A DNA stretch of 64,000 nt, from NCBI RefSeq assembly GCF_003935895.2, contig NZ_CP054058.1:744001-808000 (forward strand), given 5' to 3'. Position 1 is the first letter of the stretch. Each line of letters opens with the position of its first letter. Both the position numbers and the translations under genes were made by a program. The notes below the pieces were generated by a model. That model did not search any database. It saw only the letters and a list, made by a program, of their open reading frames with translations, and had not been told where the DNA came from. Source of the DNA: Scandinavium goeteborgense (lineage in GTDB: Bacteria > Pseudomonadota > Gammaproteobacteria > Enterobacterales > Enterobacteriaceae). Positions 44,626-60,638 of this stretch are shown here, piece after piece.

Positions 44626-44699
44626 GCGGGTGTAGTTCAATGGTAGAACGGTAGCTTCCCAAGCTGCATACGAGGGTTCGATTCCCTTCACCCGCTCCA
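44626..44699 (+). tRNA. glyU: tRNA-Gly(CCC)
   Basis: A 74-base tRNA with the CCA end encoded. Acceptor arms GCGGGTG and CACCCGC pair; the T arm has GTTCGAT; the anticodon CCC lies at 44658-44660. It reads the GGG codon. The position after actS matches glyU of E. coli. Accessory genes follow it, though I found no integrase and no repeat of its 3' end. Confidence 0.97.
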
Positions 44700-44898
44700 G
44701 TTTCACTTCTTTTAACGCCTCCCAAAGTCTACAAATCCAGTATCTGTGAGCCTTCCCGCATATTTTAGTGTGTTTTATGGTCTGCCGGGGTCTACCGGAA
44801 TCTGGCACTTGAGTTCTCTAATCTTCAGGTATTTTGTGAAAACTGCAATTCAGGATAATCAATTACTGATGAAACGGATTGGCGGTAGGATATAGAGA

Positions 44899-44926
44899 AA
44901 CGCGCCACAGTCGCTGTACGCGCGTT
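44899..44926 (-). terminator. Possible terminator of the hcp-tlde1-tldi1 module
   Basis: Stem AACGCGC-C-ACAG / CTGT-A-CGCGCGTT with a TCG loop, followed on the minus strand by TTTCTC. It lies just after the last gene of the module. The rest of the 247-bp gap after glyU shows no gene I can support. Confidence 0.5.
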
Positions 44927-44946
44927 TTAGAATGAGTCAGTGAATG

Positions 44947-45378
44947 TCAAAACTCCCGCGAGACTGTCAAATAACCATTATGGCGGACTGAACATTCATC
45001 ATCGTTCAGCAGTGCAGAGGCGATGAAAATATCCTGCTTGCCGTCTGTGCTGGTGTATGTGTAACGCGCTGTCAGATTCATAACATGATCATTATAATAA
45101 ATGCCGTAATAGTCGCTCTCCGATAATCCGTTACCGGCTGCGCTATCCGTCTTCGCCAACTGCCGTGCAAACACGTCAGAAACAGGCGTAATGCTCAATA
45201 CTTCCACCGTGGTTTTTCCACGGGCAACGGTAGCAGGAGTAATAATCAGGTCCCTTGTAAAGGCAGAGAAAAGCCCCTGCTCAATGAAGCGCCCAGGTGT
45301 TGCGCACTCACTACCGGGTTCAGCGGCGAATGCCAATGCAGGTGAAAATGCCAGGGACAGCAGAACCGCCCGGTTCAT
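44947..45378 (-). CDS. Probable Tlde1 immunity protein (Tldi1-like), periplasmic
   Basis: A 143-residue protein with a clear Sec signal peptide (MNRAVLLSLAFSPALAFAAE) and two cysteines (in SECATP and DDECSV) that could pair in the periplasm. It overlaps the Tlde1-like effector gene by 4 bases (ATGA), the usual arrangement for an effector and its immunity protein. In Salmonella the order hcp2-tlde1-tldi1 is known, and Tldi1 protects the periplasm against Tlde1. Sequence relatives are sometimes labelled Shiga toxin A subunit, which is not a helpful name. The function here is inferred from order and signal peptide. Confidence 0.7.
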   Translation of the reverse strand: MNRAVLLSLAFSPALAFAAEPGSECATPGRFIEQGLFSAFTRDLIITPATVARGKTTVEVLSITPVSDVFARQLAKTDSAAGNGLSESDYYGIYYNDHVMNLTARYTYTSTDGKQDIFIASALLNDDECSVRHNGYLTVSREF

Positions 45379-45743
45379 CGCACGACCTCAAGTTCAGAGC
45401 CTGTATCGTTTTTTACTAACAGACGCGTAGAAGAACTCATGATAATGCACCCTTCTGATGCGAATCCCGCAACACCAACACGCTTATCTCCATGCATACG
45501 GAATGTTTTCATATCACGTTCATACGCATTGCCGCTGATGTGTTTTAACGTAATGGTAAGCGGGCCTTTGCTGGTGCCGGAGTGCCCGATTTTCCATATG
45601 CCGCGCGGGATTGGCCCCATTCCGCGAACGTTCTCACGGTCTGGGTTATTTTTATTCGTCAGCGAACCTGAATAGCCGGTTTCAATTAACTTGCCATCGC
45701 GATAAAGTTCGCCGGTGCTTTGCTTATATAACCATTTAGCCAT
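45375..45743 (-). CDS. Tlde1-like T6SS effector (DUF2778, L,D-transpeptidase fold)
   Basis: A 122-residue protein starting MAKWLYKQSTGELYRDG. It has the DUF2778/Tlde1 pattern: a GPIPRG turn in the middle and the catalytic signature RMHGD...ASEGCI (His about 84, Cys about 98). Tlde1 effectors cut or exchange peptides in the peptidoglycan of rival bacteria. I chose ATG 45743, which has AAGGAG; the open frame 25 codons upstream reaches into hcp. No signal peptide is seen, as expected for a T6SS cargo. The upstream neighbour is hcp, 11 bp away, and the downstream one its probable immunity gene. Confidence 0.8.
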   Translation of the reverse strand: MAKWLYKQSTGELYRDGKLIETGYSGSLTNKNNPDRENVRGMGPIPRGIWKIGHSGTSKGPLTITLKHISGNAYERDMKTFRMHGDKRVGVAGFASEGCIIMSSSTRLLVKNDTGSELEVVR

Positions 45744-45754
45744 TTGTGATCTCC

Positions 45755-46246
45755 TTATGCGGTTTTGCGTTCTTTCCATCTGTCGGCGTGCTGTATGTTT
45801 CCATCCACATAATTCCATATGATTTTTTCATAACGCAGTCCTACATGTTCTATGTGTCCGTGTTTTTCAAAATCAGGATCTTTTGTATCGAACATTACCG
45901 GCACGACGTGGCAAACCTTTACGTTCTCTAGCTGTACGTTGAAATATTCTTGTTCGTAGCCGTTATCATTAATTCTGTAAAACCTGAACTCGGCCTTCTT
46001 TAAGGTGCGCCCCGTGGTTAATGCGCGATACAGGAGCGGGGAAGATGCATCAATCTCTTTTTCAAAGGTGTATGCTTCATGCTGGCGCGTTCCGGTGACA
46101 GCCCCGGTCATATCGTCAGTGGGGATAAATACATCATGCTGCATTCCCACCAGTTCAATACTTCCCTCTCTCCCTGTAACGTCTACTCCGCCCTTTAATA
46201 ACTTTCCTTCTTCCTCGTAAAGCCAAAGATAAACCGGTATAGCCAT
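45755..46246 (-). CDS. hcp: Hcp-family type VI secretion tube protein
   Basis: A 163-residue Hcp protein. It starts MAIPVYLWL and contains the family segments TGAVTGTRQHEAYTFEKEIDASSPLLYRALTTG and LRYEKIIWNY, as in enteroaggregative E. coli-type Hcp. Hcp forms hexameric rings that build the T6SS tube and chaperone small effectors. I chose ATG 46246, with GGAG seven bases upstream; an in-frame extension of 23 codons is AT-rich and unlikely. No other T6SS structural gene lies in the window, so this is an orphan hcp with cargo. The module is richer in AT than its neighbours. Confidence 0.88.
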   Translation of the reverse strand: MAIPVYLWLYEEEGKLLKGGVDVTGREGSIELVGMQHDVFIPTDDMTGAVTGTRQHEAYTFEKEIDASSPLLYRALTTGRTLKKAEFRFYRINDNGYEQEYFNVQLENVKVCHVVPVMFDTKDPDFEKHGHIEHVGLRYEKIIWNYVDGNIQHADRWKERKTA

Positions 46247-46392
46247 TATGAAACTCCATTTCTTTGAATTAACTGAATAAAAATACTCCTCTAAACAGTG
46301 ATTATTTGTAATCATTAATGTTCATCAATTAACAAAAATACACCCAAGATATTAATGAATAACAATAATTGAGCCAGTGATTGCAATTCTTG

Positions 46393-46485
46393 CCACTCGC
46401 TACGCCTGAAGTGTTAAACCAGAGCTGGTCATTTGATTTCATGCATGATGCTCTGATTTGTGGTCGTCGTTTTAGAACGTTCAAT
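46393..46485 (+). pseudogene. IS3-family (IS407-group) transposase orfB fragment
   Basis: About 31 in-frame codons read PLATPEVLNQSWSFDFMHDA and on to CGRRFRTFN, a piece of the DDE transposase of IS3/IS407-group elements just at its first catalytic Asp region (DFMHDAL). The similarity stops abruptly on both sides. It lies in the 426-bp gap between hcp and the amidase gene. Confidence 0.7.
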
Positions 46486-46564
46486 TGTAAGTATCCCTGC
46501 AAAACGAATCATTCACTTTTAGAGATCTTCCGACATACTGATTTTGTCACCTGTGGAGATCGCT

Positions 46565-46594
46565 ATGCGTAAGATCCGATTCACCGAGCACCAG
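46565..46594 (+). pseudogene. IS3-family orfA start fragment
   Basis: Ten codons MRKIRFTEHQ equal the start of orfA of IS407-group elements, with a plausible ribosome site (GTGGAG) upstream, then similarity stops. It lies after the orfB fragment, an order that a single intact element cannot give, so the gap holds remains of at least two insertions or a rearranged one. The rest of the gap (46595-46672) has no gene I can support. Confidence 0.55.
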
Positions 46595-46672
46595 ACAAAC
46601 CGATTAAAAATGGCGTTCCGGCCTATGTCATTGAGTCATACGTTGCGCAACAGCATAGTTCATCAGCTGGGC

Positions 46673-47986
46673 TCAATGAGTGTGGAGTACGCTTTCACAC
46701 GCCAGGGCCAGTGATAATAGAAAATGTTCATCTCGTGTTTTCGCCATAATCTCCATGCCAACGGGTAAACCATTTTTTACCATACCGCAGGGCAATGTTA
46801 GGGCAGGCAAACCGCTAATGGCTGCCAACTCGGGAGCACTGCCTGGAGGCATTTTTTCAAGGCTTATGGGTTGACGGTTAACGGTGGGGTAAACAAAGGC
46901 ATCAATACGATCCGCTTCTGCCGCATGGTTAATAGCCTGATATAAACTGCGCTGAAAGCGACGACCGTTAAGCCACTGTGGCGTTTTCAGGTGTTTCGTC
47001 TTTAGCATTTGTTCCAACAAGGGATAGAACTCGGCCAGGCATTCGCCGGAGGACATCAATGCCTGGAGAGTGGAGGGGCCGTTTTGCTGAAGCGCGAGCC
47101 AGCCATTTATAGCCACCTGAAACTCATAGAGGCTTAGACAATCCTGAGATTTTACTTCTGCCAAAATGGGCAGGTCTAATTCAATCAGCGTTGCGCCAGC
47201 CATCCGAAGTTTGTCCAGGGCAAGATGCCATACCGCACGCTGAGCCGTATCTTCGCCTTCCAGCGCGCTAATCACTCCCAAACGAACTGATTTTAGAGAA
47301 AGAGTTTCAGGCTCAACGGGTTGCTCGCCGTGCATAATGGCGTGTAAAAGTGCCGCATCTCTCACGCAATGGACCATCGGACCGACGGTATCTTTACTCA
47401 AGGAGAGCGGGGCCACTCCCTCCAGCATAGTTCGCCGATATGCGGGTCGTAATCCCACCAGGCCAGTATAACTACAGGGAATGCGAATCGAACCGCCGGT
47501 ATCTGTACCCAGCGCACCGTCAGCCATCCCAGCCGCGACGGCAGCGGCGCAACCGCCGCTCGATCCTCCCGCAGTCACCGATGGTTGTAAGGGGTTGCGC
47601 ACATCCCCACCCAGAGAACTGCGGGAGCGAATGTCAAAAGCAAACTCAGACATATTCGCTCTGGCGAGAATGATTGCCCCCGCGGCCCGCAGACGCTGAA
47701 TAACCGGTGCGTCGGATACCGCTCTTAATGACGTGAGTCCCTTGCAGCCAAGGGTTATCGGCCACGACGCGCAGGCAATATTATCCTTCACGATCACCGG
47801 TACACCCTGGAGCGATCCGGTAAGCGAGCCTCTGCGCCGTAGCTGATGGTATTGTTCAGCTATCGCCATCGCATCGGGATTAACGCCAAGAATGGCATTA
47901 AGGTGTTGATGATCGGCAATCGCCTGAAGTCGTCGGGCTACCTCTTCACGACAGTCGAGAGGGGGAATAAGTCTCATTGCATGCAT
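46673..47986 (-). CDS. Amidase (amidase signature family)
   Basis: A 437-residue amidase-signature enzyme that hydrolyses an amide bond to acid and ammonia. The Ser-cisSer-Lys triad is visible: Lys in VIVKDNI (about 68), the GGSSGG stretch (about 142-147) and the nucleophile Ser in DTGGSIRIP (about 166). ATG 47986 has AGGA; an ATG three codons later is also possible. It is the last gene of the LacI-led minus-strand operon, 56 bp after the first HisD-like gene, so it may act on a pathway intermediate or substrate. The substrate is unknown. Confidence 0.82.
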   Translation of the reverse strand: MHAMRLIPPLDCREEVARRLQAIADHQHLNAILGVNPDAMAIAEQYHQLRRRGSLTGSLQGVPVIVKDNIACASWPITLGCKGLTSLRAVSDAPVIQRLRAAGAIILARANMSEFAFDIRSRSSLGGDVRNPLQPSVTAGGSSGGCAAAVAAGMADGALGTDTGGSIRIPCSYTGLVGLRPAYRRTMLEGVAPLSLSKDTVGPMVHCVRDAALLHAIMHGEQPVEPETLSLKSVRLGVISALEGEDTAQRAVWHLALDKLRMAGATLIELDLPILAEVKSQDCLSLYEFQVAINGWLALQQNGPSTLQALMSSGECLAEFYPLLEQMLKTKHLKTPQWLNGRRFQRSLYQAINHAAEADRIDAFVYPTVNRQPISLEKMPPGSAPELAAISGLPALTLPCGMVKNGLPVGMEIMAKTRDEHFLLSLALACESVLHTH

Positions 47987-48042
47987 AAGGGAGTCCTGAC
48001 GAAAAAAATCGGCAGGCCCTTCAGCCTGCCTCTGATACCTGC

Positions 48043-49356
48043 TTAATCGCGCATGCCTGCCGTAATGGCATCAATATCCTGCGGATGCAGGCGGATCTCA
48101 GCAGCTCGACGGTGACCCTGCATGCCCTCGGTGCGGCTTTGACGAATGGCCGGTTCCGCGATCGTCGGGATTCCCTCCGCATCAATCCATTGATGGGTGC
48201 AGATTTTGACATAAGCTCCGACCCACAGTCCGCCCGTATAACGCGCCGCCGCCATTGTTGGCAGGGTGTGGTTCGTGCCGCAGCATTTATCCGAGAAGAC
48301 AACGCTGGCATTCTGCCCAATAAACAGCGAACCATAATTGCGGATTTTCGCCGCAGTAGCGTGCGGATCGCGGGTGTGAACCTGCAAATGTTCAGTTGCT
48401 ATATAGTCGGCAAAACTGATCAGTTGTTCTTCCGTGTCGCAGACAACGATCTCCCCCTGGCGTCGCCATGCTTCTCCCGCCGTCGCCGAGGTGGGTAAGT
48501 TGCCCAATTGACGCTCAATTTCCGCAAGGGTACGGGTAGCAATATCCTGACTTGTGGTAGCCAGACCGACACGGGTATGAATGTCATGTTCCGCCTGCGC
48601 CAGCAGATCGGCAGCCAGAATACGAGGATCGGCGCTTTCATCCGCTACGGTAAAGATCTCGCTCGGTCCAGCCAGTGCATCGATACCCACTTTACCAAAG
48701 ACCTGACGCTTAGCCTCGTTCACCCAGGCGTTGCCAGGGCCAACGATTTTATCAACCGCCGGAATACTGTCTGTACCCCACGCCATGGCGGCGATGGCCT
48801 GTGCCCCGCCGACTTTAAAAATGCGGTGCGCCCCCGCCAGGTGGCAAACGGCGATCATCGCCGGGTGAGCGCCAGGTGGCAGGCAGGCGATAATCTGCTC
48901 GCAGCCGGCAACGGTGGCGGGAACAATCGACATCACTGGCGCGGAAAGGATAGGGTAGCGGCCTCCCGGCACATAGCAGCCCACAGTGTGTATCGGAATG
49001 ATGCGATGCCCAAGGTGCACACCCGGAAGCGTCTCCACTTCCAAAGGCAATATGGTGGCCAGTTGGGCTTGGGCGAAGCGGCGCACCTGCGAAATGGCAA
49101 ATTCGCTGTCACGGCGGGTCTGTGGATCTATTGCGGCCAGCGCCTGTTCAATTTCCTCGGCAGAGACTTCAAACTGTTCCGGTACCACCTTGTCAAACTT
49201 CTCTGAATAGTCCCGCAAAGCCGCGTCACCATCCTGTTTGACGCGGGCAATAATGGAACCGACAGTATCGGTCACAGAGCGTTCGGCGTTCTCATCCTGG
49301 CCTTGTGGGCGCTTGATCCAGCGCACCTGATTCACGATTGTTGCAGCAGACATCAT
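48043..49356 (-). CDS. Histidinol-dehydrogenase-family enzyme, copy 1
   Basis: A 437-residue NAD- and zinc-dependent dehydrogenase. The family's key residues are kept: zinc ligands Gln254, His257, Asp356 and His415, and the catalytic Glu322-His323 pair. The context is catabolic, not the his operon. The C-terminal [10 protein letters not shown] stretch recalls the sulfopropanediol dehydrogenase HpsN branch rather than biosynthetic HisD. Members of this branch oxidise an alcohol to an acid in two NAD-linked steps. The ATG overlaps the stop of the preceding NTF2-fold gene (ATGA); a second ATG follows at once. Substrate unknown. Confidence 0.82.
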   Translation of the reverse strand: MMSAATIVNQVRWIKRPQGQDENAERSVTDTVGSIIARVKQDGDAALRDYSEKFDKVVPEQFEVSAEEIEQALAAIDPQTRRDSEFAISQVRRFAQAQLATILPLEVETLPGVHLGHRIIPIHTVGCYVPGGRYPILSAPVMSIVPATVAGCEQIIACLPPGAHPAMIAVCHLAGAHRIFKVGGAQAIAAMAWGTDSIPAVDKIVGPGNAWVNEAKRQVFGKVGIDALAGPSEIFTVADESADPRILAADLLAQAEHDIHTRVGLATTSQDIATRTLAEIERQLGNLPTSATAGEAWRRQGEIVVCDTEEQLISFADYIATEHLQVHTRDPHATAAKIRNYGSLFIGQNASVVFSDKCCGTNHTLPTMAAARYTGGLWVGAYVKICTHQWIDAEGIPTIAEPAIRQSRTEGMQGHRRAAEIRLHPQDIDAITAGMRD

Positions 49357-50495
49357 GCGTTCTCCATCTGACCCAGTTTGATTTGTGCCAGCAAGGCCAG
49401 GTGATCGTAAACCACCCACTCGTCGACAATTTTACCGTTTACAATGTGATAATGTGACATCCCCATCACGAACAGACGCTCCCCGGTCGGCTTGCCCAGC
49501 TCGCCATAGCCGAGGTGATGGCCTTCCATGATCCAGCGGATCGCCACTTTGACGCCGCCCTCATCGCAAGGGTTAGAGCAAATGTGCTGTGGCAGCCACG
49601 CGCCGTCAGGAATCATGCCAATCAGCGCCAGCGTCTGATGTGTTACTGACGCCACGCCGTACAGTTCTTTCATCAGCGGGCCGTGGTACTGCACGTTAGG
49701 CGCGTACACTTCTTTGATTTTTCCCAGCATCCGACGATTATAAATTTCATGCATCCAACGCAGACACTGCTCTTCAGTATCGGTATGGGCGATGGAGACA
49801 TCACACGCCACCTCAGGCGGATATTGGCCAAGCATGCGGCCGTTTTCACCGATATCGGTGACGCGGAAGCCCTTATCAAATTGCTCTTTCGCCATGTTCC
49901 AGGCGATTTCATCGGTATTCAGCCCCAGCTGTTTCATCATCGCCATGTTGTCACTGACTACCCACTCGCGATAAATCTTGTTCTCGTGGATCATGCAGTC
50001 TGCCACGGTGCGGGTGACGAAGGTGCGATTGGTAGGTTGGCCAAGATGGCTGAACTGTGTATGGCGCCCTGTGCCGGTCACCAGATGAGAGGTATAGAAC
50101 CCGTCGACATCATTGCCGTTCCAGATAACCTGGGTCGCCATGCCACGTCGCTCGGGGAAGGCGACCAGCCGTTTCAACGTGTCCTGCACGACCTCTTCAC
50201 GGGTATACAGCGTGCCTAATGCGTTATATAGCACGCAGTTGTGCGTATAGTGGGTGTAAATTAAACCGACATCGCGTTCATCCCATATTTTATGGGTGCA
50301 GCGAACGATATAGTCGACAATATCCGTATAGCACTCGTCAAAGCCGCGCAATGATTGAGCCCGCGGGCGTTTCTCCGGCACTAAATCGATAAAGTCACGG
50401 CGTTCAATCTGTAATACCGGTTCGTCACGCTGAATTTTATTGCTGTTTTTTTCGGGTACTGCTGGAGCTTTATTGGTTGCTTCAGTTGAAGACAT
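49353..50495 (-). CDS. Double NTF2-fold (SnoaL-like) protein, copy 1
   Basis: A 380-residue cytoplasmic protein with no signal peptide. It seems to hold two SnoaL/NTF2-like domains: the first around residues 55-200 (IVRCTHKIWDERDVGLIYTHYT) and the second around 240-375 (WMHEIYNRRMLGKIKEVYAPN, ending in VDEWVVYDHLALLAQI). This fold occurs in cyclases, isomerases, hydrolases and dioxygenase subunits, so the exact role is open. AGGAGG-like sequence lies before the ATG. It overlaps the HisD-like gene downstream. Confidence 0.65.
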   Translation of the reverse strand: MSSTEATNKAPAVPEKNSNKIQRDEPVLQIERRDFIDLVPEKRPRAQSLRGFDECYTDIVDYIVRCTHKIWDERDVGLIYTHYTHNCVLYNALGTLYTREEVVQDTLKRLVAFPERRGMATQVIWNGNDVDGFYTSHLVTGTGRHTQFSHLGQPTNRTFVTRTVADCMIHENKIYREWVVSDNMAMMKQLGLNTDEIAWNMAKEQFDKGFRVTDIGENGRMLGQYPPEVACDVSIAHTDTEEQCLRWMHEIYNRRMLGKIKEVYAPNVQYHGPLMKELYGVASVTHQTLALIGMIPDGAWLPQHICSNPCDEGGVKVAIRWIMEGHHLGYGELGKPTGERLFVMGMSHYHIVNGKIVDEWVVYDHLALLAQIKLGQMENA

Positions 50496-50572
50496 AGGAC
50501 CTCCTGCATTGATGTTCAGATAGATTCAGACAATACGATCCCGCACTCATAAAAAATGAATGAGAGGAAAAC

Positions 50573-50594
50573 GCCGCAATATTTATTTTGCGGC
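50573..50594 (-). terminator. Hairpin between the two NTF2-fold genes
   Basis: On the minus strand GCCGCAA...TTGCGGC forms a 7-bp stem with an AT-rich loop, followed by GTTTTCC. In the 127-bp gap it could partly stop transcription or protect mRNA ends. Confidence 0.4.
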
Positions 50595-50622
50595 TGAGAG
50601 TGAGGCTAGCGTTATTTCATGT

Positions 50623-51597
50623 TTATTGACTGACGATTTGCGACCAAATAGCTAATTCATCAATCCCTAAATATTCTCGAATAATTAATCCATCACGTAA
50701 TTCAATTTGGCTAATGCCAGTAATTGAAATCGGTTTACGGGTCGGTGCGCCAAATTTTCCGAATCCGTCATGCCAGGTTAATAATGACCAGCGCATGGAA
50801 ATGCGCACCGGTTCATTGGCATCTTTGCGCACAATCAGATGGTGCAGTTGAGTTTCGCTGTCGGCAAACGAAGCGCGATAGCCTGCCAGTAAAGCGCTGA
50901 TTTCAGCTTCGCCGATGCCGACACAGTGACCCGGTGCGAACAACGTTGCCGCCGGATGATATAACCCGGGAACCGTGCCACTGTTGCCCCCAGCCCACAT
51001 GGTCAGATAGCGCTCGATAACGCCCGCGATCGGGCCATCAACGTCATCACCTTCTGGCCCACCGGCCCAGCGGGCATCAAGAACTTCCGCCGTCGTGTTC
51101 TCCAGCCCCAGTTGCTCCCGCGCGCAGCTCAGGCTTAGGGCAAATTCGCGCATATCCAGACCGAGCTGAGCGACGATGGCGGTGCGATCCTGCAACAGCC
51201 ACTCCTGGCGCACCGCGCCATCGGCACAAATGCGATCTGCCCAAGTACGTACCCATATACTCTTGCCAGTGGGTGCGCCGAAGAAACCTTCCCCCTGATG
51301 GCGTATCGATGCCATCGTGCGCTGGGAGGCATAGAATTCCCCGCCAGGGGATTCGGTGCAGAGAATGTCTTCTGTCAGCACGCTGCGCTGGGGGAAGCTG
51401 TACATCGCCTCCAGCGTGTGGCGCATAAACTGTGACAGGTCGGTTAGCTGTTTTTCCGGCGTGATAAATACCACCGGCGTACCGTAGAAATCGGCCAACT
51501 GGCCGATATCTTTTTGCTCCCAAACGACGTGCGTCAGCGTCAGAATAAACTGCTGGATAGAGTCGAACTGGGGGCTGAAACCAGGCAATCTGCTCAT
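50623..51597 (-). CDS. Double NTF2-fold (SnoaL-like) protein, copy 2
   Basis: A 324-residue protein that shares architecture with the 380-residue neighbour: N-terminal VVWEQKDIGQLADFYG matches IWDERDVGLIYTHYT there, and the C-terminal parts share ITGISQIELRDGLIIREYLGIDELAIWSQI versus MGMSHYHIVNGKIVDEWVVYDHLALLAQI. Two NTF2-like domains are likely. Its ATG overlaps the stop of the lacI gene (ATGA). The two copies may be subunits of one complex. Function unknown. Confidence 0.65.
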   Translation of the reverse strand: MSRLPGFSPQFDSIQQFILTLTHVVWEQKDIGQLADFYGTPVVFITPEKQLTDLSQFMRHTLEAMYSFPQRSVLTEDILCTESPGGEFYASQRTMASIRHQGEGFFGAPTGKSIWVRTWADRICADGAVRQEWLLQDRTAIVAQLGLDMREFALSLSCAREQLGLENTTAEVLDARWAGGPEGDDVDGPIAGVIERYLTMWAGGNSGTVPGLYHPAATLFAPGHCVGIGEAEISALLAGYRASFADSETQLHHLIVRKDANEPVRISMRWSLLTWHDGFGKFGAPTRKPISITGISQIELRDGLIIREYLGIDELAIWSQIVSQ

Positions 51598-52664
51598 TTA
51601 ACCTCCTGAGGCTGAAAAAGGGATACACCCTCTTTTTCGATGACGCCGTTGCGCGGTCGTCGGGTAGAGTGGCGTACGACCAGAATGCCCGGGACTATAA
51701 TTTGCTCCGGCTCGATGGTGCCGCTCTCAATTTGCTTCATCAACAGCTCGACGGCGGCGTCAACCATCTCCTGAACCGGCTGGGAAACTGACGTCAGCGC
51801 GTAGGAGGGCCAGCCGGACGGACCGGTATCATCATAGCCAATCACCGACAGCGTCTCGGGAATGTGCAGTCCGAATTCATAGCGGGCGACATCCATTACC
51901 GTGAGTGCCATGTGGTCGTTGGCGACGAAAATGGCGTCTGGCACGGGTCCCGTCGAAAAAAGACTGTAGGCAGCGCGGATGGTCTGCTGGGTCTCGTAAT
52001 CGCCGTTGACCACTCGGACATCGTCAATTCCATGTTCATGCAGCGCCGCAAGGTACCCGCGTTGGCGGGCGATATTCACCGAGGAATCTGCCACACCGCC
52101 GACATAGGCGTAGCGTTGGTGTTCAGCGGCGACAAAAAATTCGGCAATCTGCCGCGCCGCAGCCTCGTTGTTGCTGTTCACGCTGGAGGCCATCCCGCTT
52201 TCTTCGCTGCGGTTGAACAGCACGACCGGGATGCCAGCCGCCAGACATTCCTCCGACAGATCCAGCGACAGGGACACCGATGCCAGCACGATGCCATCGA
52301 CGCGATACTGCATGATCTGATCGAAAATTCGGTCCACGTTGCCGTCTCTGTCACCGACAAAAAGCAGCAGGTGATAATTCAGGGTATCCAGCTTACGCGC
52401 CAGCGTTTCGAGGACCTGCGGATAGAACTGGTTTTCGAAATAAGACACCACCACGCCGATGATGCGCGACCGGGCGGTATTGAGCGAGCGGGCGATCGCA
52501 TTCGGGCGATAGCCAAGCTCCCGTGCAGCTTTAAGCACTTTTTCACGTGTCGCTGGGGAGATGCTTGCCCCGGGCGTGAAGCTTCGTGATACCGCGGACT
52601 GCGATACACCCGCTAGTTGCGCCACCTGCTGCGAAGTGACCGCTGCAAAACTCTTACGTTTCAT
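51594..52664 (-). CDS. LacI-family transcriptional regulator
   Basis: A 356-residue regulator. The N-terminal HTH (TSQQVAQLAGVSQSAVSRSFTPG) and hinge (RPNAIARSLNTARS) are clear, followed by a periplasmic-binding-protein-like sensor domain. It is the first gene of the minus-strand operon and overlaps the next gene, so it would be autoregulated. It faces the MFS gene across a 326-bp gap that holds two palindromes with CG centres typical of LacI-family operators. Confidence 0.9.
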   Translation of the reverse strand: MKRKSFAAVTSQQVAQLAGVSQSAVSRSFTPGASISPATREKVLKAARELGYRPNAIARSLNTARSRIIGVVVSYFENQFYPQVLETLARKLDTLNYHLLLFVGDRDGNVDRIFDQIMQYRVDGIVLASVSLSLDLSEECLAAGIPVVLFNRSEESGMASSVNSNNEAAARQIAEFFVAAEHQRYAYVGGVADSSVNIARQRGYLAALHEHGIDDVRVVNGDYETQQTIRAAYSLFSTGPVPDAIFVANDHMALTVMDVARYEFGLHIPETLSVIGYDDTGPSGWPSYALTSVSQPVQEMVDAAVELLMKQIESGTIEPEQIIVPGILVVRHSTRRPRNGVIEKEGVSLFQPQEVK

Positions 52665-52768
52665 GACCCCAGTTCCTTATTTTTGCTCTTCCCGCCGCCG
52701 TTTGCCTCAGGGGTAAACCCGCTTTGGCCCGTTGAGAAAGGAGGGCGTTTTTTATACTTACACTATCT

Positions 52769-52784
52769 TTGCATGCGTATGCAA
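52769..52784. promoter_or_regulatory. Candidate LacI-family operator A
   Basis: TTGCATGCGTATGCAA is a 16-bp near-perfect palindrome (7 of 8 pairs) centred on CG, 105 bp before the lacI-type start. It shares the AT-NCGN-AT core with operator B. Confidence 0.6.
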
Positions 52785-52859
52785 TAGGATAAATTAATTT
52801 TCTAACAATGATAGCTGCGTCACTTTACAAAATTGAAACCTTTTCGTAACTTGAAATCT

Positions 52860-52873
52860 TGAATACGTATTCA
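52860..52873. promoter_or_regulatory. Candidate LacI-family operator B
   Basis: TGAATACGTATTCA is a perfect 14-bp palindrome centred on CG, 118 bp before the MFS start and 90 bp (centre to centre) from operator A. The pair could let the repressor loop the DNA. The rest of the 326-bp gap is AT-rich and must hold two divergent promoters. Confidence 0.6.
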
Positions 52874-52990
52874 TCGAAATATTCATGCCGTCAACGATAC
52901 CGGGCAAAGGGAAGAACAACCAGAGGGACAGAGCCGGTAAATGCCGTACTTGACTGGTTCTAACCCATTTATTCTCAGAGGTTCACAACC

Positions 52991-54229
52991 ATGTTTCGAG
53001 CACTGTTGCGCCGACCTGAAGCCCGGCTCTTTTTCGTTATCAGTATTCTTTTTTTCATCTGTATCCACAGCATTGACGCGTTTCTCGCACCGATGATGCT
53101 GGAGCAGGGCATCGAACCTCAGGTGATGGGCGTCATCATGGGGGCCAGTGGACTGGCTACCCTGCTGATTCGCTTCCCGTTGGGGATCATCTCCGATGTG
53201 GCAAAAAGCCGCAAAATATTCATTCAAATCAGCCTGCTATTACCGATTTTTACCTGGCCTTTAGCGTGGCTGGATCCTGGCCCGGTCACACTCTATCTGG
53301 CAAAGGCAGCGGATGGCGTCACCGCCGCCACGTGGGTGCTCTATAACATCTTGTTTATCCGCTACTTTGATCGTAAAGAGGCCCCGGCAGCGGTGGCGCT
53401 GCTGGCGCTGGCAGGGCCAGTAGGGGTATTTATCGGTAACTGCATCGGCGGCTTACTGATTCACTATTTTGATAACAACATCGCATTTTTACTCTCCTGC
53501 GGGGCCGGATTGCTGGCGCTGTTGCTGACCACCCGAATCAACGACGTGCACGATCCGTTGCAGGCTCCCACTTTGCAGGCCTGTATCGCCGGGGCGCGAA
53601 AACAGCTCGGGGACCGTTCCGTGTGGATGATCGGCCTGTTGGCCACCATTGTTATCCTGGTGCCATTCGCCACCCGCGATACCCTGACCCCAATCTACGC
53701 CGAAAAGCTTGGCGCCCGAGCGGGGATCCTGTCCCTGCTGAGTAATATCCATCTGATTTTCTACGCGCTTGCCATCGCGCTGTGCAGCACGGTTTTCTAT
53801 CGCCGTTTCGGGGTGATGAAAACGGCCGTTGCCGGAATCGTATTACAGATATTCTCCACGCTTGGGATCCCGTTTACCGACAATATGTACCTCATCTATG
53901 CCTTGCAAGCATTGGCGGGTTTCTCCTTCGGCATGGCCTTTGCCGCCTTTATGTCACTTAGCGTGGTCAATACCTCCACGGATGAACAGTCCACCCGAAT
54001 GGGGCTTTTCCAGACCATCTATTCGCTCGGAATGTTTATTGGCCCGGTGATCATGGGCGTAATGCTGCAACATATTAATCTGTCATCCGGCTATATTTTT
54101 ATTGCCGTACTTTCGATTGTTGCCGCCGTTATGACACCTCTCTCCGTGCGATGGGTGAATAACCGACAGGTTAAGACCGTATCTGATTTATCCACGAACG
54201 GGAAACTCGCTCCCGCCCGCGATAGATAA
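52991..54229 (+). CDS. MFS transporter
   Basis: A 412-residue inner-membrane protein with about 12 hydrophobic helices. The MFS loop 2-3 motif is recognisable (GASGLATLLIRFPLGIISDVAKSRK). AGAGG lies before the ATG. It is the first gene of the plus-strand operon, so it is the likely uptake system for the substrate. I cannot place it in a substrate-specific family. Confidence 0.85.
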   Translation: MFRALLRRPEARLFFVISILFFICIHSIDAFLAPMMLEQGIEPQVMGVIMGASGLATLLIRFPLGIISDVAKSRKIFIQISLLLPIFTWPLAWLDPGPVTLYLAKAADGVTAATWVLYNILFIRYFDRKEAPAAVALLALAGPVGVFIGNCIGGLLIHYFDNNIAFLLSCGAGLLALLLTTRINDVHDPLQAPTLQACIAGARKQLGDRSVWMIGLLATIVILVPFATRDTLTPIYAEKLGARAGILSLLSNIHLIFYALAIALCSTVFYRRFGVMKTAVAGIVLQIFSTLGIPFTDNMYLIYALQALAGFSFGMAFAAFMSLSVVNTSTDEQSTRMGLFQTIYSLGMFIGPVIMGVMLQHINLSSGYIFIAVLSIVAAVMTPLSVRWVNNRQVKTVSDLSTNGKLAPARDR

Positions 54230-54303
54230 TTTTTTATAACGCATTCTTTCCTCCTGTTCTAACGGGAGGAGCGCTCACGTCTATTTTTTAACAGGAGTAC
54301 GTC

Positions 54304-55626
54304 ATGGCCTATACCTTAAAAACCAGTAAGCCGGTACAGGAACGTCAGGAAGCTCAGCGTCAAATAAGAGAAACTGTGGAGTTTATTCTGGCGGATATTG
54401 AACATCGAGGGAATAAAGCGATCCGCGAATTATCGATTAAGTTCGATAATTATGACCGTGCGGATTATCGCCTGAGCGATGCCGAAATTAATCACTGTAT
54501 ACGGCAACTGAGCCGTCAGGATATTGCAGATATTAAATTTGCACAGGAACAGGTATTTAACTTCGCCCGCCAGCAGAGAGCTTGCCTGCTGGATCTGGAA
54601 GTGGAAACCCGTCCCGGCGTTATTCTCGGCCATAAAAATATCCCGATTAACGCGGTCGGCTGCTACGTCCCGGGGGGTAAATATCCCTTACTCGCCTCGG
54701 CGCATATGTCGATCATCACCGCCAACGTTGCGGGCTGCTCGAGGATCATCAGCTGCGCCCCACCGTTTAAGGGACAACCGGCCCCGGCCATTGTCGCTGC
54801 CCAGAAGATGGCAGGAGCCACCGAGATTTATGCTCTGGGGGGCATTCAGGCTATCGGCGCCATGGCGCTGGGCACCGACACGCTTGCCCCGGTGGACATG
54901 TTGGTCGGGCCGGGTAATGCCTTCGTGGCCGAAGCAAAACGGCAGCTGTTTGGCCGCGTCGGCATCGATCTGTTCGCCGGGCCGACTGAAACGCTGGTGA
55001 TTGCCGATGAAACCGTGGACGCAGAAATGTGTGCCACCGACCTGCTGGGTCAAGCGGAGCACGGCGTCACGACCCCCGCCATTTTGCTGACCAATTCGGA
55101 AAAACTCGCCAGAGAGACGATGGCCGAAGTTGAACGGCTGCTGCTCAAGCTGCCTACCGCCGACATCGCCCGTCGCGCCTGGGAAGATTATGGTGAAGTT
55201 ATCGTCTGCGACAGCTACGAAGAGATGCTCAAAGAGGCTGACCGGATTGCCTCCGAGCACGTGCAGGTAATGACCGACCGGGACGACTGGTTCATGGCCA
55301 ATATGACGAACTATGGCGCTCTCTTTCTGGGGCCGCGCACTAACGTAGCCTACGGCGATAAGGTGATTGGCACCAACCATACGCTGCCGACGCAGAAAGC
55401 TGCCCGTTATACCGGTGGTCTGTGGGTCGGAAAATTCATGAAGACCTGCACCTGGCAAAAGGTGTTGAGCGATGAAGCCTCAGCGGAAATCGGCAGCTAC
55501 TGCTCGCGTCTCTCTTTACTGGAAGGATTCGCCGGGCACGCCGAGCAGGCCAATGTCCGCGTGCGCCGCTACGGCCAGACGGACGTGCCATACGCGACCC
55601 CAGCCCCAGTCAGAGAGAAGGTGTAA
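54304..55626 (+). CDS. Histidinol-dehydrogenase-family enzyme, copy 2
   Basis: A 440-residue relative of the copy at 48043-49356. The zinc ligands Gln250, His253, Asp352 and His412 and the catalytic Glu318-His319 pair are all kept. The C-terminal [17 protein letters not shown] stretch is close to HpsN-type sulfopropanediol dehydrogenases. AGGAG lies before the ATG. The two copies are clearly diverged, so they probably act on different steps or different stereoisomers. Substrate unknown. Confidence 0.83.
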
Positions 55627-55628
55627 TC

Positions 55629-56393
55629 ATGACGCTTCCGCGCACACCGTCATTCTCCTTGCAGGGCAGAAGGGCGCTGGTCACCGGCGGCTCTAAAGGG
55701 CTTGGCTTCGCCTGCGCGGTCGCGCTGGCGCACGCCGGGGCAGAGGTGTGGATCGCCGCGCGTAACCGTGACGATTTGGCTCACGCGGTCGATCTTGCCG
55801 CAGGCGGAGGGTTGACGTTGCATCCATTGGAACTGGACATCACCGCATCACAGAAAGTGCAAGAGATTCTGAGCCAACTTCCGGTGATGCATATTCTGGT
55901 GAACAGCGCTGGACTGGCGCGTCATCAGCCATTTCTGGACGTCAGCCCTGAGAATTTTGATGCGGTGATGGCGCTCAACCTGCGGGCGACCTTTTTTATC
56001 AGCCAGCAGGTGGCGCGTCGGATGTGCGATGAGGGGGTCGAAGGCTCAATTATTCACATTTCATCGCAGATGGGTCACGTCGGCGGATCGCAGCGCAGCG
56101 TCTACTGTGCGTCAAAGTTCGCCCTCGAAGGACTGACGCGCACTATGGCACTTGAACTTGGCGAGGCGGGGATCCGGGTGAATACCCTCTGCCCAACTTT
56201 TATCGAAACCGAGTTGTCTCGCCAGTCGCTTAGCGATCCGGATTTTCGCCGCTTTGTGATGAGTAACATAAAGTTGCCGCGGCTGGGGAAAGTAGAAGAT
56301 GTCATGGGGCCTGTGGTGTTTCTCGCGTCTGACGCTGCGGGGATGATCACCGGGAGTGCGCTGATGGTTGACGGTGGCTGGACCGCGACATGA
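55629..56393 (+). CDS. SDR-family oxidoreductase
   Basis: A 254-residue classical short-chain dehydrogenase. The nucleotide motif GGSKGLG lies at 20-26, NSAG at 92-95, and the catalytic Ser145-146, Tyr159 and Lys163 (YCASK) follow. It starts 2 bp after the HisD-like gene and overlaps the hydrolase gene by 4 bases. It probably oxidises or reduces a hydroxyl or keto group in the pathway. Confidence 0.88.
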   Translation: MTLPRTPSFSLQGRRALVTGGSKGLGFACAVALAHAGAEVWIAARNRDDLAHAVDLAAGGGLTLHPLELDITASQKVQEILSQLPVMHILVNSAGLARHQPFLDVSPENFDAVMALNLRATFFISQQVARRMCDEGVEGSIIHISSQMGHVGGSQRSVYCASKFALEGLTRTMALELGEAGIRVNTLCPTFIETELSRQSLSDPDFRRFVMSNIKLPRLGKVEDVMGPVVFLASDAAGMITGSALMVDGGWTAT

Positions 56394-57121
56394 ATTCATA
56401 TATTGAAAACAGCGAGGTCCCGTTAGTGCTGATTGGCGGCACGCTCTGCAACGCCCGGCTCTGGCAGCCGTTGATCGATCGCCTGAACGTGTCGGCGGTA
56501 ATCTGCCTGACGCTCTCCTGCGCCGATTCAGCGCCAGAAGCCTCCCGACGTTTACTGCAGGTGCTGCCACCGCGCTTTCTCCTTGCCGGTTTCTCGTTAG
56601 GGGCAATCGTCGCGCTACAAATGGCCGCCGATGCGCCTGAGCGCCTGGCGGGGCTGGCACTGATGTCAGTCAATCCGTTGGTAGACCTGCCGAAAAATGC
56701 CGATGTCAGACGGGCCGGTGTACAGGCAGCGCACGTGCAGGGGCATGGGGCGTGGGTCTCTGACACGTTGTGGAAGAATTACGTGGCACCGACCAGCTTC
56801 AGCAACCAGAGATTGCACGACATCTTGTGCCAGATGGCGCAGGACACTGACAGTGAGACGTTTTCACGTCAGACGGAGATCGCCATTAGTCGCCGCGATA
56901 ACCGCGACGCACTCAGCTCGCTCGCCTGCCCGGTGCTCATCCTCAATGGCGAGCATGACCCTATCTGTACCCCTGACCACCACAGACTGGCCGCGGAATC
57001 TGCGGCTAACGCCACCTGGCTTACCCTAAATTCAGCAGGGCACTTCTTTGTTCTTGAATCACCGGACAATACCGCAGCCCTGCTTCGACAGTGGATGATG
57101 GAGTCACTGAAATGCGAGTAA
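56390..57121 (+). CDS. Alpha/beta hydrolase
   Basis: A 243-residue enzyme with the full catalytic triad: Ser69 in GFSLG, Asp190 in NGEHD and His218 in AGHFF. It has no signal peptide. It overlaps the SDR and the aldolase gene, so all three are translationally coupled. It could open a lactone or an ester, or cleave a C-C bond. The substrate is unknown. Confidence 0.83.
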   Translation: MNSYIENSEVPLVLIGGTLCNARLWQPLIDRLNVSAVICLTLSCADSAPEASRRLLQVLPPRFLLAGFSLGAIVALQMAADAPERLAGLALMSVNPLVDLPKNADVRRAGVQAAHVQGHGAWVSDTLWKNYVAPTSFSNQRLHDILCQMAQDTDSETFSRQTEIAISRRDNRDALSSLACPVLILNGEHDPICTPDHHRLAAESAANATWLTLNSAGHFFVLESPDNTAALLRQWMMESLKCE

Positions 57122-57903
57122 ACAATATCAAACGGATGCTGGCGGAAAACCGCCCAATCATCAATGGCTGGCTGGCAATTCCGTCCAGCTACAGTGCCGA
57201 AATTATGGGGCATCAGGGCTACGATGCCGTGACCGTCGATTTGCAGCACGGGATGATTGATTTTGCCAGTGCGTTGACGATGCTGCAGGCGCTCTCCGCC
57301 ACCTCGGTTGTGCCGCTGGTACGCGTCCCAGACGGCACTCCCGCGCAGATTATGCGGGTGCTGGATGCTGGCGCGTATGGGGTTATCTGCCCGATGGTCT
57401 CCACGGCAGAGCAGGCGCAACGCTTTGTTTCGGCCTGCCGCTATCCGCCGCAAGGTATTCGCTCCTTCGGACCGGCGCGCGGCCTGCTGTATGGCGGCGC
57501 CGACTACCCCCAGCACGCTAACCGCGAAATTCTGACCCTGGCGATGATTGAAACGCGGGAAGGGTTAACGCATCTCGATGCAATCCTCGAGACCGAAGGG
57601 CTGGATGGCGTGTTTATTGGGCCGAACGATCTCTCCCTGACGCTGACCGGCGCTGCCAGCGCTGAATCCACGCATCCGGATATGTTGTCCGCGATAGAGC
57701 GAGTCGTCAGCCGTTGTCGTGAGAAGAATAAAATCGCCGGTATTTTTTGCACCTCTGGCGCTGCCGCTGCACAGCGTATCGCCGAAGGGTTCAACTTTGT
57801 GACACCCGCGAACGACGTGATGCAACTGGGTCGCGCGTCGCGCGAAGCGATTGCGCTTGCTCGCGGTGACGCTATCCCCACTACCGGCTCGTCCGGTTAC
57901 TAA
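57112..57903 (+). CDS. HpcH/HpaI-family aldolase
   Basis: A 263-residue class II (metal) aldolase of the HpcH/HpaI type. Residues matching the HpaI active site are in place: His46, Arg71, Glu147 and Asp173. Family members cleave 4-hydroxy-2-keto acids to pyruvate and an aldehyde, or related compounds. ATG 57112 has GGAG at eight bases and overlaps the hydrolase end by 10 bases. This is the likely last carbon-cleaving step. Confidence 0.86.
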   Translation: MRVNNIKRMLAENRPIINGWLAIPSSYSAEIMGHQGYDAVTVDLQHGMIDFASALTMLQALSATSVVPLVRVPDGTPAQIMRVLDAGAYGVICPMVSTAEQAQRFVSACRYPPQGIRSFGPARGLLYGGADYPQHANREILTLAMIETREGLTHLDAILETEGLDGVFIGPNDLSLTLTGAASAESTHPDMLSAIERVVSRCREKNKIAGIFCTSGAAAAQRIAEGFNFVTPANDVMQLGRASREAIALARGDAIPTTGSSGY

Positions 57904-57914
57904 CAGGAGCTGTT

Positions 57915-59093
57915 ATGAAAGCAATCACCTTAACCTCTGATCAGGCCCGTTCCCGCCTGGTTGCGCCTGAAGACATGGTCTCCTGCAATCTGGCCTTCAT
58001 CGACTGCAAGCTGCCGGGATCGCATCTCAAACAGAACTATTCTTTCATTGGCCCAGGCGTGACGCAGTCGTCTGCGCAGGTTGTGAATATTCCTGAGCCA
58101 CATGGATTTAATATCGGTGCAGCGGCGATGCCGAAAGGGGTCACCAACAACCTGCACCTGCACTTTACCGCCGAGGTATTTTTAATTCATGAAGGGAGCT
58201 GGCGCTTCCGTTGGGGCGCCAATGGCGAGCATGAAGCGGAGTTCAGCGCACCTGCGATCCTGACCATTCCGACCTGGATTTTCCGCGGCTTTACCAATGT
58301 CAGCAAAGAAGACACCTGCGGCATGGTCTATACCGTGCTCGGGAGAAATAATACCGGGGGGATTATCTGGCACCCGTCGATCCTCGAGGCCGCCAGCGAA
58401 TGTGGGATGTATCTCAACAAAGACAACATGCTTATCGACGTGAGTCGAGGTGACACCCTGCCGGAGAAATCGGCGCTGTTGGCTCCACTTGCCACGGAAG
58501 AGATAGCCGCGCTGCGCGACTATTCGGAAGAAGAGATGCGTAAGCGGGCTGTTACAGGCGAGGAGCGGCAATGGTCATCTGAAGGGCTGCTGGATGCTGT
58601 GCTACCGGGTCACGGTGGGGAGATAGCGCCGGTAATTGGCTTTGGTATTTCGCAGGATCGTCACAGCGCGCCACCGATCATTCAGCCGCACGGTTTCTCA
58701 GTGGAGTGGCTGCGTATGCAGCCTGAACATCAAATAGGACGCCATTTGTGCCCGGATATTCAGGTGCTCATGGTCTTTAAAGGCACCCTGGAGGTGACCT
58801 GGAATCAGGCGGGGGAAGAGGTGAGCATCATCGCCCCGGAACGTTCGATAGTCTCTATTCCAGCCAACAGCTGGCGCCGCTACCGCGCGGTAGAGGCTGG
58901 CGTGGAATGTATTCTCACCACCCAGGGTGATCATCGCAAACGTCTGTACTGGGACGAGACTATTTTACAGCAGGCCAAAGAGTTAAATCGCGGTCTTGAT
59001 CCCGATGGCTACGTCAGTAAGCTTGATATCCTGCCGGTCACCGCCCGTAGGGCAGGTAGCAGGCTAGAGCGGCTGGTCGAAGAAGAAAACTGA
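57915..59093 (+). CDS. Bicupin-domain protein
   Basis: A 392-residue cytoplasmic protein with two cupin domains. The N-terminal one (about residues 65-140) carries a full metal motif (His81-x-His83-x3-Glu87), whereas the C-terminal one (from about 255) keeps only part of it. The layout resembles gentisate-type dioxygenases and bicupin isomerases, but I cannot assign an activity. CAGGAG lies before the ATG. It is the last gene of the plus-strand operon, 11 bp after the aldolase. Confidence 0.75.
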   Translation: MKAITLTSDQARSRLVAPEDMVSCNLAFIDCKLPGSHLKQNYSFIGPGVTQSSAQVVNIPEPHGFNIGAAAMPKGVTNNLHLHFTAEVFLIHEGSWRFRWGANGEHEAEFSAPAILTIPTWIFRGFTNVSKEDTCGMVYTVLGRNNTGGIIWHPSILEAASECGMYLNKDNMLIDVSRGDTLPEKSALLAPLATEEIAALRDYSEEEMRKRAVTGEERQWSSEGLLDAVLPGHGGEIAPVIGFGISQDRHSAPPIIQPHGFSVEWLRMQPEHQIGRHLCPDIQVLMVFKGTLEVTWNQAGEEVSIIAPERSIVSIPANSWRRYRAVEAGVECILTTQGDHRKRLYWDETILQQAKELNRGLDPDGYVSKLDILPVTARRAGSRLERLVEEEN

Positions 59094-60017: not shown

Positions 60018-60638
60018 ATGTCCGTCACAGATTCCCTTCTCGCATTCACTTTCGCCGCAGCGTTATTAACGCTAACACCCGGGCTGGATACTGCATTAAT
60101 TCTACGAACGTCGGTTGCCGAAGGCGGCAAAAAAGCTGTCCATGCGGCGCTGGGCATCGATCTGGGCTGTTTTATCTGGGGCGCGCTTGTGGCCTTTGGT
60201 CTTGGCGCGTTGCTGGCGATGTCGGAACTGGCATATACGGCGCTGAAATGGTGCGGTGCCGCGTACCTGTGCTGGCTGGGTATTCAACTTCTGCTGCGCC
60301 CGCGACAGCATTTTTCCTTGCAGGTTGAGGGCGACGTTCGCAGCAGTAACTGGTTTTTGCGCGGAATGTTGGGCAACGTGCTGAACCCCAAAATGGGCGT
60401 GTTTTACGTCTCGTTTCTACCGCAGTTTATTCCCGTCGGGCATTCGCCGATTGTCTGGACCTTCCTGCTGGTCTCGATTCACGTCTGTCTGGGGACGTTG
60501 TGGTCGCTGACGCTGATTGTGGCTTCGGGTTATGCGACAGATGTTCTAAAACAACCGGCGGTGGTGAAATGGATGGATCGCACAACTGGCGCCGCGTTCC
60601 TGCTGTTCGCGGCGCGTCTGGCGCTCAGTAAGCGCTAA
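60018..60638 (+). CDS. LysE/RhtB-family amino-acid exporter
   Basis: A 206-residue membrane protein with the family start (LLTLTPGLDTALILRTS) and the central GNVLNPKMGVFYVSFLPQF motif. About six helices. GGAGA lies before the ATG. Family members export amino acids such as homoserine, threonine or leucine. I cannot say which; it is not ArgO, which lies at 11251. It converges on nrsF with a 14-base overlap. Confidence 0.85.
   Translation: MSVTDSLLAFTFAAALLTLTPGLDTALILRTSVAEGGKKAVHAALGIDLGCFIWGALVAFGLGALLAMSELAYTALKWCGAAYLCWLGIQLLLRPRQHFSLQVEGDVRSSNWFLRGMLGNVLNPKMGVFYVSFLPQFIPVGHSPIVWTFLLVSIHVCLGTLWSLTLIVASGYATDVLKQPAVVKWMDRTTGAAFLLFAARLALSKR

Follow-up and report, generated by a model that had tools for sequence, protein, structure and literature searches.

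We analysed a 64,000-nucleotide stretch of the Scandinavium goeteborgense genome (4.71 Mb, two contigs), comprising positions 744001-808000 of contig C2 and hereafter called the window. A gene cluster of catabolic appearance occupies window positions 46673..59093. A sequence-only reading of the same DNA had placed the cluster correctly at these coordinates and had counted ten genes, but its own list named 11, and 11 were found. The gene identities in that list were borne out, each being a long open reading frame with a family match. The genes form two divergent operons, the leftward one in the order lacI, second SnoaL gene, first SnoaL gene, HisD-2 and amidase, and the rightward one in the order MFS transporter, HisD-1, short-chain dehydrogenase/reductase (SDR), alpha/beta hydrolase, HpcH/HpaI aldolase and bicupin. 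The features are as follows.

46673..47986, minus strand: amidase of the amidase-signature family, assigned to the upper module (PF01425, E 1.3e-81)
48011..48030, minus strand: terminator-like hairpin between the hisD-2 and amidase genes, 8 pairs and then a T run
48043..49353, minus strand: HisD-2, alcohol dehydrogenase of the histidinol-dehydrogenase fold, motif GRYPI...SDK (PF00815, E 1.1e-139)
49353..50495, minus strand: first double SnoaL/NTF2-fold protein, of the kind named "ester cyclase" (PF07366/PF12680)
50623..51597, minus strand: second double SnoaL/NTF2-fold protein (PF12680/PF07366)
51594..52664, minus strand: LacI-family regulator, recognition stretch VSQSAVSRSFTPG (PF00356 and Peripla_BP_3)
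52770..52783, no strand: operator 1, TGCATGCGTATGCA, one pair short of a perfect palindrome
52860..52873, no strand: operator 2, TGAATACGTATTCA, a perfect palindrome, 90 bp from operator 1
52991..54229, plus strand: MFS transporter (PF07690, MFS_1)
54304..55626, plus strand: HisD-1, alcohol dehydrogenase of the histidinol-dehydrogenase fold, motif GKYPL...GDK (PF00815, E 8e-136)
55629..56393, plus strand: SDR (PF13561, E 1.2e-57)
56390..57121, plus strand: alpha/beta hydrolase (PF12697)
57112..57903, plus strand: HpcH/HpaI class II aldolase of the SwHKA type (PDB SwHKA 8adq/6r62 and variants, E about 1e-64)
57915..59093, plus strand: bicupin (Cupin_2, weak, 29.5 bits against a cut-off of 27.2)

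The gene ends overlap or nearly touch, as had been read earlier. The lacI and second SnoaL (NTF2) genes overlap by 4 bp, as do the SDR and hydrolase genes, HisD-2 and the first SnoaL gene have one base in common, and the gaps between HisD-1 and SDR and between aldolase and cupin are 2 and 11 bp. HisD-2 probably spans 48043-49353 (436 aa), slightly unlike the mechanically called open reading frame. For the aldolase, 57112 is the likely start (263 aa), against 57091 in the mechanical frame; both lengths equal those annotated in Pantoea dispersa. The hairpin is weak evidence, since 13.2 such sites would be expected in the region and 17 are present. An upper module (two SnoaL/NTF2 proteins, HisD-2 and amidase) is distinguishable from a lower module (HisD-1, SDR, alpha/beta hydrolase, class II aldolase and cupin), and the latter is also seen alone; the record of a Klebsiella plasmid (L007) holds the lower module only.

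Two LacI-type 14-bp palindromes, at 52770 and 52860, lie between the divergent operons. A search of the window for the palindrome with at most one mismatch gave 4 strand matches against 0.24 expected, and none of 100 shuffles reached 4. In the whole S. goeteborgense genome the pattern TGMATRCGTATKCA matched solely the two cluster sites, and a reversed control matched nothing. Comparison of 30 lacI-MFS intergenic pieces (the window, L003 and 28 enterobacterial loci) revealed a palindrome pair 88-90 bp apart in 29; the 30th, from L037, is cut short, and the full L037 locus carries both palindromes. One palindrome of the pair is a variant in L047 and in L048. The pattern, derived from enterobacteria alone, also hit the clusters of Sinorhizobium, Devosia and relatives, Deinococcus and Priestia. 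It was present in 35 of 40 genomes or records scanned, the reversed control in none of the 40. By hand count these 40 records hold 80 distinct sites, of which 78 adjoin genes of the system and two (G570:C41 and G571:C18) do not; one of the 78 precedes a related lacI in another setting (L170). By machine count, 122 of 123 operator positions in the fetched loci, which overlap and from which several redundant ones were excluded, lie near the start of a pathway gene (L171, with a site and no recognised gene, falls outside this count). Four sites outside the fetched loci all precede the gene of an ABC-transporter sugar-binding protein.

The operators also accompany genes that stand apart from the cluster. 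Among 14 enterobacterial genomes without an amidase beside the cluster (L054, likewise without one, was excluded), an amidase orthologue was found elsewhere in four, at 63-69% identity, and in all four the exact operator lies 14-103 nt before its start codon. Six enterobacterial loci have no HisD-1 nearby, and five of their genomes were searched for it (L050 was left out): HisD-1 was intact elsewhere in three (73-74% identity), split in two frames in one, and not found in the fifth, a stink-bug symbiont with a decayed-looking cluster. In L054, from the stink-bug symbiont Pantoea sp. Eser, lacI, HisD-2 and cupin are each present as two open reading frames and HisD-1 is absent. Four separate HisD-1 loci carry a sister operator, TGNATTCGAATNCA, upstream of HisD-1, twice in three of them and once in the other. 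The LacI recognition stretch is similar in most relatives; in the regulators of the lower-module-only clusters L007, L161 and L163, FTEGG replaces FTPG after the recognition helix, and these regulators and the sister operator would fit a joint change of regulator and operator. In the window the regulator gene adjoins palindromes that precede the target operons, as in a LacI regulon. Because the same palindrome pattern marks related clusters and precedes displaced amidases, both operon halves very likely form one regulon, and the case is made much stronger by the shared operator pair and by its confinement to this locus in its own genome.

Devosia sp. Leaf420 (L170:1518-13074) has an unlinked operator that precedes a related lacI. 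The genes nearby encode hydantoinase A/B, an ABC transporter component, a further HisD-1-like protein and a zinc alcohol dehydrogenase. The pathway may exist here in a third version that opens a lactam or hydantoin.

The sequence-only reading had put forward a search for conserved neighbours as a check. This search was run, and all 11 genes were found in unchanged order on a 710-kb plasmid of Pantoea dispersa (NZ_CP074351), where 94% of the cluster aligns with a DNA identity of 79%. Relatives were collected by a scan with the first-SnoaL alignment, which confirmed 440 among species genomes; the best 80 of the 440 were kept, and family counts refer to the 59 of these 80 loci of at least 20 kb, the 21 shorter ones being left out. 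All 11 families were near in 8 of 25 enterobacterial loci, which were defined by presence of the second SnoaL protein (hence 25 of 25 by selection). LacI, HisD-2 and MFS occurred in all 25. HpcH and hydrolase were each found in 22, SDR and cupin each in 21, HisD-1 in 19 and amidase in 11; some of these absences are due to the 10-kb flank or the score limit, e.g. that of cupin in L051 and L052, and for the alpha/beta hydrolase the count in distant loci is probably too low. On plasmids the set takes varying forms. Both HisD types, an amidase and a SnoaL protein are encoded on those of Roseibium, Alloyangia, Novosphingobium and Martelella. Sinorhizobium medicae WSM419 carries both a SnoaL and a cupin gene of the system, and most of the gene set is also clustered in Bacillota and Deinococcota, a plasmid of the Gram-positive Priestia having lacI, SDR, cupin, hydrolase, aldolase, SnoaL, one HisD, two MFS genes and an amidase in a row. 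The transporters vary among relatives (CUT1 sugar ABC, TRAP, MFS, SSF). A PDB search with one sugar-binding protein of the relatives gave no match at 1e-10, and megablast of the cluster against E. coli genomes gave none either. When unassigned neighbours were clustered, none of the groups proved to be another constant family; the largest, from 7 loci, looks by eye like additional SnoaL proteins. A MetE-like gene is present in 10 of the 59 loci. In the alphaproteobacterial loci L023 (L023:14985-16106), L147, L155 and L157 a short MetE-like protein is encoded between cupin and hydrolase.

The S. goeteborgense genome encodes three PF00815 proteins, two of them in the cluster. The third, at C2:1577679, has the motifs GSAPL and GDY of the histidine-synthesis type, and a role of the cluster copies in histidine biosynthesis was rejected, a true HisD being present elsewhere in the genome. 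Neither HisD-1 nor HisD-2 has the histidinol dehydrogenase motif GSAPL. A study of HpsN (PMC11382572) gives GRY[AS]H as the HpsN motif and GSAPL as the HisD motif, with His126 of the HpsN motif binding zinc/sulfonate and the Lys of an Asp-Lys pair helping to hold the sulfonate. In a census of 133 HisD copies from the window and the fetched loci (over 300 bits and 380 aa), the HpsN histidine was found in none; the window copies read GKYPL and GRYPI. The HisD-1 motif GK[YF]P[LM] is present in 66 of 68 copies, the other two starting with GR, and GDK in all 68, while GR[YF]P[IL] with SDK characterises 64 of 64 HisD-2 copies and likewise one Priestia copy. Every HisD-1 and HisD-2 copy in the census keeps the catalytic Glu-His (xEH) and Asp-Lys ([GS]DK) pairs. 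The nearest solved structure to HisD-1 is HpsN 8v35 (402 bits vs. 260 for the best HisD), and for both cluster copies HpsN gives a higher score than biosynthetic HisD. In a 40-row tree, whose long branches leave the deep forks uncertain, they form separate clades, the main HisD-1 clade (support 98/94) standing beside, not within, the HpsN pair, and the HisD-2 clade standing apart. Since the HpsN histidine is absent from all 133 copies, neither HisD copy is, by its sequence, a sulfopropanediol dehydrogenase; the kept Asp-Lys pair suggests an acidic group on their substrates. The earlier assignment of both to an HpsN branch therefore fits loosely: it agrees with the scores, but each protein belongs to a separate clade, and the residue that defines HpsN is missing from both.

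The best PDB matches of the window aldolase are structures of SwHKA. Swit_5035 is SwHKA over 250 of 250 aligned residues, and Swit_5033-5036 of Rhizorhabdus (Sphingomonas) wittichii RW1 encode an SDR, a hydrolase, the aldolase and a cupin; the SwHKA gene resides in a fragment of this catabolic system. According to the SwHKA paper (PMC10099721), the enzyme takes pyruvate and hydroxypyruvate, and Phe210 and Ser116 are discussed by its authors. Equivalents of both residues are kept in the window aldolase, which by these and by sequence relation belongs to the SwHKA type. The terms "natural substrate", "physiological", "gene cluster" and "pathway" are absent from the main text of that paper. With respect to aldolase type, 23 of the 59 loci have HpcH, 19 RraA, none both and 17 neither. 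The HpcH/HpaI and RraA families both hold metal-dependent pyruvate aldolases, for which reason the two probably replace one another. In Vibrio (L013) genes for OtnK, OtnC and OtnI, each scoring above its NCBIfam cut-off, adjoin the cupin/aldolase/hydrolase trio; otn genes likewise adjoin it in Ensifer (L020), with OtnK above its cut-off and OtnC slightly below. Because these three stand together, free of HisD and SDR, in the otn-type clusters of Vibrio and Thioclava, cupin, aldolase and hydrolase probably act jointly on the last intermediates, and the HisD-2/amidase/SnoaL part would feed them.

The remaining enzymes are less readily named. The nearest curated name for the amidase is indoleacetamide hydrolase, at 327 bits against a cut-off of 532, so that the substrate is not fixed by that name. 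For the first SnoaL protein the first alignment gives identities of 60-95% with six relatives and of 25-39% with four that are distant, and both SnoaL proteins are double-domain (SnoaL/SnoaL_2). In the cupin the N-terminal domain is the conserved one and is probably metal-binding, judging from H81, H83 and E87 in the alignments; the second domain is variable, and absent in Deinococcus and Priestia. The PDB relatives of the cupin and SnoaL proteins are too weak to indicate function. The nearest solved structures to the alpha/beta hydrolase are esterases and 3-oxoadipate enol-lactonase, all weak.

We propose that the cluster is one horizontally mobile catabolic regulon that imports and degrades a polar, sugar-like, perhaps amide-containing compound, and put the probability of this at roughly three in four. 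A LacI-type repressor, freed by the substrate or an intermediate, would open both operons from the operator pair, and the MFS protein would import the compound. The upper module would then oxidise a primary alcohol of the substrate to a carboxylate and, where an amidase is present, split an amide or lactam. The lower module would oxidise a second terminal CHOH-CH2OH unit and open an ester, lactone or diketone, giving a hydroxy-2-oxo acid that the aldolase would split into pyruvate or hydroxypyruvate and a small oxo compound. In terms of enzyme order, a HisD-type enzyme would turn CHX-CH2OH into an acid, the SDR would produce the oxo acid, and the class II aldolase would cut it. The aldolase step is backed by the relation to the characterised SwHKA and the apparent exchange with RraA-family proteins. 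The earlier view of a single catabolic unit for uptake, alcohol oxidation, hydrolysis and aldol cleavage is now strongly supported; its enzyme naming needed correction, and the substrate is a guess. The gene content and its conservation, the shared palindromes, the relation of the aldolase to SwHKA and the absence of HpsN and HisD signature residues are direct observations at the level of sequence.

Several observations weigh against this proposal. Repression and inducer release under LacI control we infer from site shape and position, and a scan of the intergenic region found no sigma-70 promoter consensus. The exact operator is absent from 5 of the 40 records, those of the Roseibium, Alloyangia, Martelella, Novosphingobium and Klebsiella plasmids, despite their related genes. 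Both HisD-1 and HisD-2 are present in just 40 of the 59 loci. No HisD-2 was seen in the Sinorhizobium and Octadecabacter plasmid stretches, the latter also lacking an amidase; on a Deinococcus plasmid, likewise without HisD-2, two HisD-1-like genes and a nitrilase-type hydrolase replace HisD-2 and amidase, and Priestia has a single HisD. The amide step is not universal: in 10 of the 14 enterobacterial genomes without an amidase beside the cluster, no match to it reached E 1e-60. The mutual exclusion of HpcH and RraA largely follows taxonomy. L144, a locus outside the 59, combines the two aldolase types within 20 kb: RraA is grouped with a hydrolase, a cupin and lacI, and about 8 kb away on the opposite strand lies an HpcH-type aldolase, with sugar-binding and ABC genes in the interval; no HisD was recognised there. 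Finally, the order of steps and the chemistry of each enzyme are inferred, most of all for the SnoaL proteins and the cupin, whose roles are guesses.

Among the alternatives, catabolism of an acid sugar, deoxy sugar or saccharinate has a real though minority chance, and it is a variant of the main proposal with a commonplace substrate. Here a C5-C7 polyhydroxy acid, unbranched or branched, would be oxidised at its CHOH-CH2OH end, giving a 4-hydroxy-2-oxo acid whose cleavage would release pyruvate together with an aldehyde or hydroxypyruvate; the amide would be a side branch. The CUT1-type sugar ABC transporters annotated in alphaproteobacterial and Deinococcus relatives would suit such a substrate, as would the trio adjoining OtnK, OtnC and OtnI in Vibrio (with OtnC just short in Ensifer) and the binding of hydroxypyruvate by SwHKA (PMC10099721); the two or more double SnoaL proteins per cluster, and the amidase with its loss and separate control, are left unexplained. 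A small chance is given to degradation of a substrate of the mycosporine/gadusol kind, a C7 cyclitol that bears nitrogen. An amino-alcohol or amide arm would be handled by HisD-2 and the amidase, HisD-1 would turn the ring CH2OH into a carboxylate, and the hydrolase would open a cyclic 1,3-diketone. RraA or HpcH would then cut a C7 acid like 4-carboxy-4-hydroxy-2-oxoadipate to pyruvate and oxaloacetate; RraA relatives are known aldolases for such acids. In the version that lacks HisD and is linked to otn genes, the ring would carry more hydroxyl groups and give pyruvate and 3-oxo-tetronate, the OtnK substrate. The carbon count fits both versions; described catabolism of mycosporine or gadusol was not found in the open-access literature searched. 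We see a slim chance for pantothenate/pantoate catabolism, in which the amidase would be a pantothenase and HisD-1 a pantoate 4-dehydrogenase, SDR and aldolase removing the rest. One molecule would there hold an amide and a primary and a secondary alcohol, and PDB entries 4p47, 4pdh, 4p9k/4pak and others, some of them reportedly with D-erythronate or pantoate bound, are the closest structures to the TRAP binding proteins of L008 and L013; however, the SnoaL proteins, the cupin and the second HisD are left without a role, and sugar-type ABC uptake would be odd.

The other three readings were rejected. The SnoaL family names, together with genes for an acyl carrier protein and an acyl-AMP ligase at a distance of about 8 kb from the cluster on the Klebsiella plasmid, would accord with biosynthesis or tailoring of a small polyketide-like product, the SnoaL proteins acting as cyclases. 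We consider this highly improbable and rejected it because no synthase is annotated in the plasmid neighbourhoods read, although no sequence search was aimed at one; a sugar-type LacI, several import-type transporters and a catabolic-type aldolase also speak against it. Degradation of sulfopropanediol (DHPS) by HpsN-type enzymes has hardly any chance. HpsN is indeed the best-scoring solved structure for HisD-1 and HisD-2, with the Asp-Lys pair kept, but the family matches of the 11 genes include no sulfolactate lyase or sulfite exporter, and an HpsN/DHPS function was rejected on the failure of the HpsN motif (PMC11382572), whose histidine none of the 133 HisD copies has. That the two operons are unrelated and are neighbours by chance has next to no chance itself: the modules are sometimes apart, but the arrangement is conserved in enterobacteria, and genes of both modules stand together in Alphaproteobacteria, Deinococcota and Bacillota. 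This reading was rejected because the operator pair in the common intergenic region is shared by both operons.

The site of the cluster is variable among relatives. In a same-genus genome (G006, locus L201) the flanks are 85-93% identical to the window and the cluster is absent, three genes that by eye resemble a transport operon occupying its place. A tRNA-Gly gene lies on the left side of the cluster, and in another sister (L202) an integrase-like gene, recognised by eye, lies there. At 44626-46315 of the window, tRNA-Gly(CCC) is followed by a likely type VI secretion trio: an Hcp-like protein (45755-46315), a Tlde1-domain protein (45375-45818) and a small protein (44947-45378) that may be the immunity partner of the Tlde1-domain protein. 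A segment of about 110 bp (46485-46596) has copies at about 90% identity or more elsewhere in its own genome, including the small contig C1, and also in same-genus genomes. To the right of the cluster, a sigma-70-family factor of ECF size (61241-61810) adjoins an NrsF-type anti-sigma protein (60625-61266).

The cluster is a real, mobile catabolic unit and probably co-regulated. A search of the open-access literature for a described pathway with the gene set, SwHKA, ascorbate, erythronate/pantoate or the operator letters found none, in agreement with the sequence-only reading, which had recognised no pathway with this set. The pathway is mobile and conserved, has its own operator and reaches Pseudomonadota, Deinococcota and Bacillota at the least, which points to a natural compound that is widespread; no description of the breakdown of such a compound was found in the same literature. 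SwHKA, an aldolase studied for synthesis, gains a pathway context, and two large groups annotated as histidinol dehydrogenase are set apart from both HisD and HpsN. The 14-bp operator locates the regulon genome-wide and makes the inducer testable.

Compared with known systems, the cluster HisD copies share with HpsN, the (R)-DHPS 3-dehydrogenase of the hps cluster (PMC11382572), the family and the catalytic Glu-His and Asp-Lys pairs, and by analogy alone may share its four-electron alcohol oxidation; they differ in lacking His126 of GRY[AS]H and in forming separate clades. Myo-inositol (iol) catabolism, an analogy by general plan alone, would resemble the cluster in its dehydrogenase, dehydratase, ring opening, cupin-fold isomerase and aldolase. 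The neighbourhood of SwHKA, whose sequence is 44% identical to the window aldolase over the aligned region, has SDR, alpha/beta hydrolase, HpcH/HpaI aldolase and cupin in the order of the window, whereas the mapped stretch of the RW1 fragment is without HisD, SnoaL, amidase and LacI. In the otn tetronate pathway, relatives of the cupin, aldolase and hydrolase are clustered with otn genes in Vibrio, Thioclava and Ensifer; the window cluster, in contrast, is without otnK, otnC and otnI and has two HisD genes and an SDR gene instead.

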